From an uncultured Pelagibacteraceae bacterium (GTDB lineage: Bacteria > Pseudomonadota > Alphaproteobacteria > Pelagibacterales > Pelagibacteraceae), in contig CACFKF010000004.1 in assembly GCA_902566775.1 (NCBI GenBank), positions 1 through 64,000 of the forward strand: 64,000 nucleotides of DNA. Reading direction: 5' to 3'. Position 1 is the first letter of the stretch. Each line of letters starts with the position of its first letter. This document shows, one piece after another, positions 58,960 through 62,214 of this stretch. The notes beneath the pieces were generated by a model. That model saw only the letters and a list, made by a program, of their open reading frames with translations, ran no database searches and was not told the origin of the DNA. Position numbers and translations under genes: made by a program.

Positions 58960-59883
58960 CTATTTAAAAAAATTTATCCAACCGCTTTTTTGATGATTAA
59001 AGTTAAATAAACTTGGATGAATAATTTCCGCAAAAATTTCTAATGATTCTACGAGTCTTGGGCCTGGTCTGTTAAAAAATTGGTTGCCATCAACAACAAA
59101 AAATTCCTTATCTTTAAATGCTTTTAAATTGTTCCATTTACTTTCTTTAATCAGTAAATTTTCCACCTCATCTTTAGTTTTTTCAATATTATACCCACAA
59201 GGTAAAAAAATAATAATTTCAGGGTCATAACTTTTAATTTCTTCAAAGTTTATCCAGTGTGAGTCTTTTCCTGACTTTCCAAAAATATCTTCGCCTCCAG
59301 ATATTTTAACCATTTCAGGAATCCAATTTCCTGCTGCCATTAAGGGTTCAATCCACTCAATACAAGCTACAGTTCTCTTTTTTTTTTTTGAACTTTTAAT
59401 CTGAATATTTTTTACTCTTTGTTCTAGCGGTTTAATTAAACTTTCAGTAGTTATCAGATCTAAATTAAGTCCTTTGGCAACTTTTTTTATATCATCAAAA
59501 ACCTCACCCAAAGTATTTGGCTGAAGAGAAATTATTCTAGTTTTTTCGTTAAGATGTTTGTTAACTATTTCTTCAACTTCTGTTAGGCTTACTGCACACA
59601 CTTCACAATGTGCCTGAGTTATAACTAGGTCAGGCTCTAATTTTTTTAATTCTTTAATGTCTACTTTATAAACAGATAATGAGTTTTCTAAAATTGTATT
59701 AATTTGTTTATGAATTTCTCTACTTGTGCCTTCAACTTTTATTTTAGGTGAAGTTAATTTTATAATCTTATTCAAATCTTTTGGGTAATCACATTCATGT
59801 GATCTTCCAACAATTAAATCTTTCTTGCCTAAGAAAGCAACAATTTCTGTAGCACTTGGTATTAAAGTAACAATTTTTCTCAT
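58960..59883 (-). CDS. BtuF-like (periplasmic binding protein family) protein without an obvious signal peptide
   Basis: VTLIPSATEIVAFLGKKDLIVGRSHECDYP, VITQAHCEVCAVS, RPGPRLVESLEIFAEIIHP. Confidence 0.82.
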   Translation of the reverse strand: MRKIVTLIPSATEIVAFLGKKDLIVGRSHECDYPKDLNKIIKLTSPKIKVEGTSREIHKQINTILENSLSVYKVDIKELKKLEPDLVITQAHCEVCAVSLTEVEEIVNKHLNEKTRIISLQPNTLGEVFDDIKKVAKGLNLDLITTESLIKPLEQRVKNIQIKSSKKKKRTVACIEWIEPLMAAGNWIPEMVKISGGEDIFGKSGKDSHWINFEEIKSYDPEIIIFLPCGYNIEKTKDEVENLLIKESKWNNLKAFKDKEFFVVDGNQFFNRPGPRLVESLEIFAEIIHPSLFNFNHQKSGWINFFK

Positions 59884-59886
59884 TAA

Positions 59887-59916
59887 TTAAATAAGAATTA
59901 TAAATATTTTTTTCAT
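59887..59916 (-). other. Mini-ORF MKKIFIILI* repeating the 5' end of the 60601..61695 hydrolase gene
   Basis: 25-bp exact repeat (59894-59918 = 61673-61697) including the ATG; stop codon 3 nt before the BtuF-like start. Confidence 0.45.
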
Positions 59917-59918
59917 TT
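59894..59918. repeat. 25-bp exact direct repeat, copy 1 (agaattataaatatttttttcattt)
   Basis: Identical to 61673-61697. Confidence 0.9.
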
Positions 59919-59920
59919 TT

Positions 59921-59986
59921 TCAAACTAGCATCAAGATAAGTATGAATATAATCAAACCAATTATAGGAACAAAGAAATGTTGCAT
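59921..59986 (-). other. Mini-ORF MQHFFVPIIGLIIFILILMLV* (21 aa, hydrophobic)
   Basis: ATG to TGA read on the minus strand; a single TM-like segment. Confidence 0.35.
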
Positions 59987-59990
59987 ATTC

Positions 59991-60023
59991 TTATTCTACC
60001 ACGATCCCTAAAAATTTTTTCAT
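59991..60023 (-). other. Mini-ORF MKKFLGIVVE* repeating the start of the upstream nuclease gene
   Basis: 17-bp exact repeat (60007-60023 = 60459-60475) including the ATG; ATG overlaps the nuclease TGA. Confidence 0.4.
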
Positions 60024-60475
60024 GATGTCTTTCTAAAATCCCATGGATATTGGAACTTCATAGCCCATATTCCAAGTTTATTAGCCTTTGCAAAATCTTC
60101 ATCTTCAATAAATTTTGTTGAATATTTTCTATATGCAAAAGCATAACCACTTCGTACTAAAAATTTTGATAGGCTTTCGCCATTCACGAAACATTCTGCC
60201 AAGGTTCTTTTATAAACATCTTTGCCTTCGCTGATACATTCAGGTGTGATGTTTCCAATCTTTTTCACTAATAGCTTTTTTGCTAACATGCCACATGCTA
60301 CTACTTGATCATTTTGCAGGCAAGTTTGTGTTAGTTCAGGCGTATCAATACCTGAAAAACGTATTTTCTCACCGTTTAAAACAATTGTATCACCATCAAC
60401 AACTTTAAGATTATTTGCTAAAGAAGCATTGCACCACAACAAAAAGGGAAATAAGATTCCTAAAAATTTTTTCAT
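60020..60475 (-). CDS. Secreted thermonuclease-family (SNase-like) protein
   Basis: 151 aa; signal peptide MKKFLGILFPFLLWCNASLA; VVDGDTIVLNGEKIRFSGIDTPE, KDVYKRTLAECFVNGESLSKFLVRSGYAFAYRKY. Confidence 0.88.
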   Translation of the reverse strand: MKKFLGILFPFLLWCNASLANNLKVVDGDTIVLNGEKIRFSGIDTPELTQTCLQNDQVVACGMLAKKLLVKKIGNITPECISEGKDVYKRTLAECFVNGESLSKFLVRSGYAFAYRKYSTKFIEDEDFAKANKLGIWAMKFQYPWDFRKTS

Positions 60476-60576
60476 TTATTTTTTCTTTTACGTATTCTTT
60501 TATCAATTTCTCTAGCTATAATTAATAATGCAAATACTTGAAGTATTGTCCAAACTAAATCCCAGTTAAAACTCAT
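60472..60576 (-). CDS. Unannotated 34-aa membrane mini-protein MSFNWDLVWTILQVFALLIIAREIDKRIRKRKNK
   Basis: Minus-strand ORF absent from the ORF track; TM-like N-terminal half, basic tail, ATGA overlap with the nuclease start. Confidence 0.6.
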   Translation of the reverse strand: MSFNWDLVWTILQVFALLIIAREIDKRIRKRKNK

Positions 60577-60600: not shown

Positions 60601-61695
60601 TTAATTAAGCAGATTTTCTTCCCAAAACTTTAAATTTTTTTTGAAAAACAATTTTCCTTTATCACCACCACCTTTGGCGCCTGTGAACATACATCCGCTT
60701 AAATTATAAGGGTCAAAACTGAATTTCAGAGTTCGTAGTGGATCTTCTTTTGACATTTTATAAAAATCTTCTTCAGTTTCCCAACGGTCTACATACTCCA
60801 ATAAAAAATCCATATAAGACTTGCTCATCTTTCCATCATCTTCAGTGTACCACTTAGGACATTTCCAAAAAATTTGTGCGTACTCCATATCTTCAACTTC
60901 ATAATTTCCAATGAAATCATGGTGCCATCCTTCTTTAACATCAACTATTATATCTCCACCATTAGCTTTAATTTTATTACCAAGTTCAACACAAGGTTCT
61001 GCTCGGGTGTAGTTGTCGGAACCACCTAGAATCATCCATGTTTTTGTTTCTTTTATTGGTTGAGGATTTCTAAACATTCCAACGTCCTCACAATCAGGAT
61101 ATAATGGTTGTGCTGCAGCAAAATATAAATCTTTACTTATAAGTGCATCTCTCATTCTTTTTTCTGATGCTAAAATTGAAACCATTCCACCTCTCGAGCC
61201 TCCTTGAATACCAACTTTTTTTATATTGATCTTTGGATTTTTTGACAAATATTCAAGAGCAATAAATGGATCAAGAAATTGTGACCAAATATTTACTGTA
61301 AACTGATTTCCGGCTGAACTACCTATTTGATCTCTTGCAGTAAAGTGGTCAATAAACATTGTTGCAATTCCTTTTTTTTGCAATCTCTTGGCCTGGTTTT
61401 TATGAAAAACCATCCATTTAGATACAAACTCTTCAGGTCCCCAACTACTATGACTTACCATTACAAGTGGAAATGGACCCTCTCCTTTAGGATATATAAT
61501 TAATGCTTCAAACTCGCTTGGCGACTCTTTGTGCCAGCCTTCTTGTATAGCGTAAAAATCAAAAGCTCTATACGATTGAATTTTTACCAACTCACTATTT
61601 TTAAATTTTTTTTGTAATTTTACCATAAATTTATTAAATGCAAATGCAGGACTTGCAATTAATAAACAAATTAGAATTATAAATATTTTTTTCAT
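60601..61695 (-). CDS. Secreted alpha/beta hydrolase (dienelactone-hydrolase-like)
   Basis: Signal peptide MKKIFIILICLLIASPAFA; VGIQGGSRGGMVSILA nucleophile-elbow-like motif; GWHHDF. Confidence 0.82.
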   Translation of the reverse strand: MKKIFIILICLLIASPAFAFNKFMVKLQKKFKNSELVKIQSYRAFDFYAIQEGWHKESPSEFEALIIYPKGEGPFPLVMVSHSSWGPEEFVSKWMVFHKNQAKRLQKKGIATMFIDHFTARDQIGSSAGNQFTVNIWSQFLDPFIALEYLSKNPKINIKKVGIQGGSRGGMVSILASEKRMRDALISKDLYFAAAQPLYPDCEDVGMFRNPQPIKETKTWMILGGSDNYTRAEPCVELGNKIKANGGDIIVDVKEGWHHDFIGNYEVEDMEYAQIFWKCPKWYTEDDGKMSKSYMDFLLEYVDRWETEEDFYKMSKEDPLRTLKFSFDPYNLSGCMFTGAKGGGDKGKLFFKKNLKFWEENLLN

Positions 61696-61701: not shown

Positions 61702-62214
61702 TCAGGATATAGATTTCGAATATTTTTTCCAGTTCTCTTGATACCGTATTGAGTTTTTTAAAATTGCTTTAACCTCATCATCTGTAACTTTTCTAATAAC
61801 TCTTCCTGGCGAGCCTACTACAAGGGAGTTATCTGGAATTTCTTTATTTTCGGTTATTAAAGATTTTGCACCTATAACACAATTGTTTCCAATTTTAGCA
61901 TTATTTAAAATTACAGCTCCTATTCCAATTAAACTATTGTCCCCAATTGTACATCCATGAAGCATAACCATATGGCCAACAGTTACGTTTTTTCCAATCT
62001 TTAAAGGATATCCTGGATCAGTATGCAAAACACTTCCATCTTGAATATTTGAACCCTCACCCACATGAATATTTTCAATATCTCCTCTTAAAGTTGCATT
62101 AAACCAAATGCTTGTATTTTTTTCTAATGTAACATCTCCTATAATAGTAGCGTTTGGCGCCACCCAATTTTCGCCTAAATTTTTTGGTTTTTTATTTTCT
62201 ATATTGTAGAACAT
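61702..62214 (-). CDS. Gamma-carbonic anhydrase family protein (hexapeptide repeat)
   Basis: SIWFNATLRGDIENIHVGEGSNIQDGSVLHTDPGYPLKIGKNVTVGHMVMLHGCTIGDNSLIGIG. Confidence 0.92.
   Translation of the reverse strand: MFYNIENKKPKNLGENWVAPNATIIGDVTLEKNTSIWFNATLRGDIENIHVGEGSNIQDGSVLHTDPGYPLKIGKNVTVGHMVMLHGCTIGDNSLIGIGAVILNNAKIGNNCVIGAKSLITENKEIPDNSLVVGSPGRVIRKVTDDEVKAILKNSIRYQENWKKYSKSIS

Follow-up and report, generated by a model that had tools for sequence, protein, structure and literature searches.

A conserved 21-codon gene for a predicted SAR11 membrane peptide that probably changes place between genomes, found between two severed gene starts

Three short open reading frames lie in a chain on the minus strand of a 64,000-nucleotide stretch of Pelagibacteraceae DNA (hereafter the window), and the middle one, mini-ORF2, is probably a real, relocating gene for a microprotein with a single membrane span, enclosed by the severed starts of other genes. 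Sequence comparison identifies it as a predicted, previously unlisted SAR11 membrane peptide gene; its neighbors, mini-ORF1 and mini-ORF3, are best read not as genes but as severed fragments that contain only the opening 26-30 nt of secreted-protein genes. SAR11 bacteria rank among the most numerous cells in the ocean, and their genomes are considered to contain hardly any superfluous DNA. A single-copy, place-changing, conserved 21-codon gene outside the family libraries would provide a concrete case of a hidden SAR11 microprotein.

Re-reading of the sequence placed mini-ORF1 (MKKFLGIVVE*) at 60023-59991, mini-ORF2 (MQHFFVPIIGLIIFILILMLV) at 59986-59921, and mini-ORF3 (MKKIFIILI) at 59916-59887, with gaps of 4, 4, and 3 nt between them and before the start of the BtuF-like gene at 59883, in agreement with the sequence-only reading. 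The start of mini-ORF1 overlaps by 4 nt (ATGA) the stop of a minus-strand gene for a staphylococcal-nuclease-like secreted protein (60020..60475, ending at 60020; Pfam SNase, 6e-15), and the BtuF-like periplasmic binding protein on the other side is likewise encoded on the minus strand (58960..59883; Pfam Peripla_BP_2, 5e-17). Dinucleotide shuffles of the interval contained a three-ORF chain in 10 of 3000 cases, and a handful of further chains are present within the 64 kb. The chain alone is only moderately unusual, so conservation in relatives must decide the case. On the other side of the nuclease gene, a 34-codon ORF (MSFNWDLVWTILQVFALLIIAREIDKRIRKRKNK; 60475-60576, minus strand) lies 5' of the nuclease start and overlaps it, and is a candidate small membrane protein.

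When we searched 399 genomes of the genus with the 140-nt interval as DNA, a search that presupposed no reading frame, 12 matched its middle at 79-96% identity, and many short matches fell on both of its ends. After orientation and translation, 11 of these 12 loci encoded this 21-codon ORF; the exception, L044, starts with TTG and runs to 22 codons. A pattern built on the first codons matched 14 of these 399 genomes and, at the order level, 6 of 297 genomes (one of them from another genus), with a single match in each, and the reversed control pattern gave no match in either scan. The same pattern found 43 named Pelagibacteraceae contigs besides the window, every one from a different isolate. 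Of these copies, 41 are complete; each of them measures 66 nt and stops at codon 22 (TGA or TAA), and the frame has no indels. There is one copy per genome wherever this was counted; many of the genomes are incomplete single-cell assemblies, and counts of one copy or of absence are lower bounds. The encoded peptide has 21 residues, nearly all hydrophobic and none charged, and we infer from this make-up that it inserts into the inner membrane and most likely spans it once. Pfam, NCBIfam, and PHROGs gave no match to mini-ORF2 above cut-off (a pilin N-terminus scored below threshold, at E 0.5), and literature searches on SAR11 small proteins returned nothing about the family.

The pattern itself fixes codons 1-9 (the first 28 nt), and conservation there is partly due to the choice of matches; only codons 10-21 were therefore used for comparing codon positions. 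Among 20 loci at the rnhA site (190 pairs), pairwise differences at positions 1/2/3 of these codons were 0.179/0.028/0.136, compared with 0.047/0.027/0.167 for the adjacent rnhA. Second positions of mini-ORF2 are thus as constrained as those of rnhA, and first positions vary as fast as third positions. Second codon positions determine hydrophobicity; the substitutions fall almost entirely within I, V, L, M, F, and A, with first positions freely swapping I, V, L, and M. A substitution test on a tree, with the observed base changes retained, found 5 radical changes where 9.8 were expected (P about 0.03), a weak coding signal, and a comparison of T at second positions with T elsewhere was not significant (P 0.13). 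Frame, start, stop, and codon-position constraint hold across loci, as for a protein-coding gene. That mini-ORF2 is instead a non-coding RNA or DNA signal, open by chance, is very improbable. T-rich DNA does translate to hydrophobic residues, and another reading frame of mini-ORF2 is also open, but start and stop are fixed, conservation stops at the stop codon, and changes track codon positions. RNA folding was no better than that of shuffles (fold z +0.9 to +1.4) and no Rfam family matched the locus; a structured RNA was rejected on these grounds.

The genomic sites of mini-ORF2 fall into two groups. In 22 of the 43 loci it lies 3' of rnhA, and the other 21 are spread over more than a dozen contexts, behind nuclease, MFS, TRAP, ABC, MOSC, MazG-like, PhoX-like, and hydrolase genes, tRNAs, and others, where gene names come from reading the sequences except for those with Pfam matches. 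The upstream gene or tRNA is on the same strand and usually no more than 90 nt away (exceptions, L096 and L112). Read-through from this neighbor would transcribe mini-ORF2. Conservation covers the ORF with about 13 nt on its 5' side and no more than a few nt beyond the stop. The short block directly 5' of the start, GTAGAATAAGAAT (59987..59999 in the window, minus strand), is present in most loci and reappears after unrelated upstream genes in the 43-locus set. A leaderless promoter reading of this block was dropped: 6 nt of it are missing from about half of the rnhA-type copies, and their absence would alter the spacing. Downstream, the genes differ among loci and in many cases lie in the opposite orientation. 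The suggestion that the mini-ORFs are leader peptides fails for mini-ORF2 on this point, as it has no constant downstream gene on its own strand. In five of the loci (L090, L100, L106, L114, and L124), the stop of mini-ORF2 overlaps, as ATGA, another reading frame that begins MNKEN..KLWKIIQE; the 75-aa version of that frame in L114 had no Pfam match.

At the rnhA site, filled and empty states can be compared directly. A block of 81-87 nt, AATATTTAGAAT(AAGAAT)-ORF-AAT, separates rnhA from a hairpin in rnhA-type carriers. In five genomes that carry mini-ORF2 elsewhere (G000, G090, G108, G186, and G431) the site is empty, and that hairpin, TCGGGGCACCTGGCAACAGAACGCCCC, or a close variant comes immediately after the rnhA stop. 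The two types are interleaved in the rnhA tree (for example, G186 next to L117 and G431 next to L101), which implies that the block was gained, lost, or moved repeatedly. A discrete block with an empty site, found in more than a dozen contexts, is also what would be expected of a selfish DNA segment of about 85 nt that spreads by recombination and whose ORF is of no use to the host. Such a segment would be expected to lose the frame and the second-position constraint, and a multiplying element would hardly keep to a single copy per genome; we regard this explanation as decidedly unlikely. A hairpin-like repeat, GGGGCACCTGGCAACAGAACGCCCC, occurs just 3' of rnhA or mini-ORF2 (L086, L193-L197, and others), with 20 exact copies in both orientations among the loci compared; it matched no Rfam family and resembles a terminator or a repeat element of SAR11.

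Among characterized peptides, IbsC is, by analogy, the closest functional counterpart of mini-ORF2. IbsC, 19 residues long, requires about 10 hydrophobic residues and lacks a positive C-terminus (PMC8309996). Like the Ibs peptides of the Ibs/Sib type I toxin-antitoxin system, mini-ORF2 encodes about 20 residues with one predicted hydrophobic helix and no charged C-terminus, and its sequence is that of a short hydrophobic peptide with predicted membrane location; it differs in its host group, in having no demonstrated sequence relation, and in showing no conserved antisense RNA around the ORF. A type I toxin checked by antisense RNA and spreading as an addiction unit would account for the IbsC-like length and make-up (PMC8309996) and for a single-copy, patchy, relocating gene. 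Against this, conservation from about 13 nt 5' to a few nt 3' of the ORF leaves no conserved space for an antisense RNA gene, the flanks are unrelated between sites beyond about 13 nt, Rfam has no match at the locus, and placement behind active genes would mean constant expression. Because the defining antisense RNA is missing, mini-ORF2 is not filed with IbsC, and the toxin explanation is unlikely.

The more probable reading of mini-ORF2 is as an accessory membrane peptide, which may tune either the membrane or a protein complex within it. Small regulatory membrane proteins of the KdpF, CydX, and MgtR type span the membrane once and have a fixed partner gene. Mini-ORF2 resembles them in its very short, single predicted transmembrane segment and in its place at the end of a transcription unit, but has no constant partner gene.

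In contrast to mini-ORF2, the flanking mini-ORFs copy the starts of other genes. Mini-ORF1 matches the start of a lipoprotein-like gene of the same genome at 26 of 27 nt and corresponds to about the first 26 nt of a start (MKKxLGIVV) common to many SAR11 secreted proteins. Near-identical 23-26-nt starts encoding an MKKxLGIxV signal peptide recur in unrelated SAR11 secreted proteins, including window positions 60453-60475 and 60001-60023 and three sites in G000 (C1:40499, C4:81806, and C4:82621). An intact longer ORF was found in relatives at the position of mini-ORF1, which the sequence-only reading had named as a sign of a pseudogene. The nuclease of L164 is 84% identical, and across its stop, with GTGA, begins a gene of 478 codons for a hydrolase-like secreted protein that has AAAAATTTTTAGG in common with the window; in L165, a secreted-protein gene of 293 codons starts at the same overlap. 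A mini-ORF1 stub precedes mini-ORF2 at eight unrelated sites (the window and seven others), and is broken at two of them (ATG to ATA in L108, a frameshift in L089). Mini-ORF3 with the 2 nt upstream (59889..59918) copies 29 of 30 nt (97% identity, with exact seeds shared) of the start, at 61697-61668, of a dienelactone-hydrolase-like secreted protein gene (60601..61695, minus strand; Pfam DLH, E 6e-4, marginally short of the curated cut-off).

The proposal of real microproteins therefore survives for mini-ORF2, with its conserved frame, length, and stop; it fails for mini-ORF1 and mini-ORF3, as copies of gene starts, and mini-ORF1 is also broken in L089 and L108. Translation of all three was rejected on these grounds. 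The alternative proposal, debris of a decayed secreted-protein gene, fits mini-ORF1 and mini-ORF3 as severed starts of such genes and does not fit the conserved mini-ORF2. That all three derive from a single decayed gene is scarcely credible, since intact mini-ORF2 occurs without stubs, as in L110 and L127, where it follows the nuclease with no stub in between, and in the 22 loci after rnhA.

The stub in the window looks like a hybrid, judging from its two halves: it begins with TTTTTAGG, as in the gene at the nuclease tail of relatives, and continues with GGATCGTGGTAGAATAAG, as in mini-ORF2 blocks elsewhere. Recombination within the repeated signal-peptide gene start may have allowed the mini-ORF2 block to replace the post-nuclease gene of relatives, and hybrid stubs suggest that such starts serve as joints for swapping secreted-protein genes. 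A bolder proposal, which we hold only tentatively, is that mini-ORF2 is a self-contained mobile microgene of about 85 nt for a 21-residue membrane peptide that moves between sites behind genes and tRNAs, would be maintained by its own benefit or by addiction, would exclude a second copy, and would use signal-peptide gene starts as recombination joints. A phage-borne origin found no support: IMG/VR viral contigs gave 0 matches with three mini-ORF2 patterns, PHROGs gave none, and phage records gave only 23-nt matches at chance level. SAR11 hypervariable or flexible gene content (PMC2217521) is similar in placing variable genes between conserved ones; the mini-ORF2 unit differs in being only about 85 nt long and in occupying many sites outside one region.

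The variable stretch that contains the mini-ORFs has as its left border a hexapeptide (gamma-carbonic-anhydrase-like) gene (61702..62214, minus strand; Pfam Hexapep, 5e-21) and as its right border the BtuF-like gene. The latter directly follows the former in L062, L063, and L066, and other genes lie between them in L064, L065, and L067, which marks the junction as an insertion hotspot. L064 has two short copies of the last codons of the hexapeptide gene (YSKSIF) upstream of the BtuF-like gene, a putative footprint of insertion at this junction. Elsewhere, another severed gene start occurs in both L203 and L027 and continues alike in the two (MKKLLGIVVLGY[KR]IL*); it may represent a second element composed of a stub and a block.
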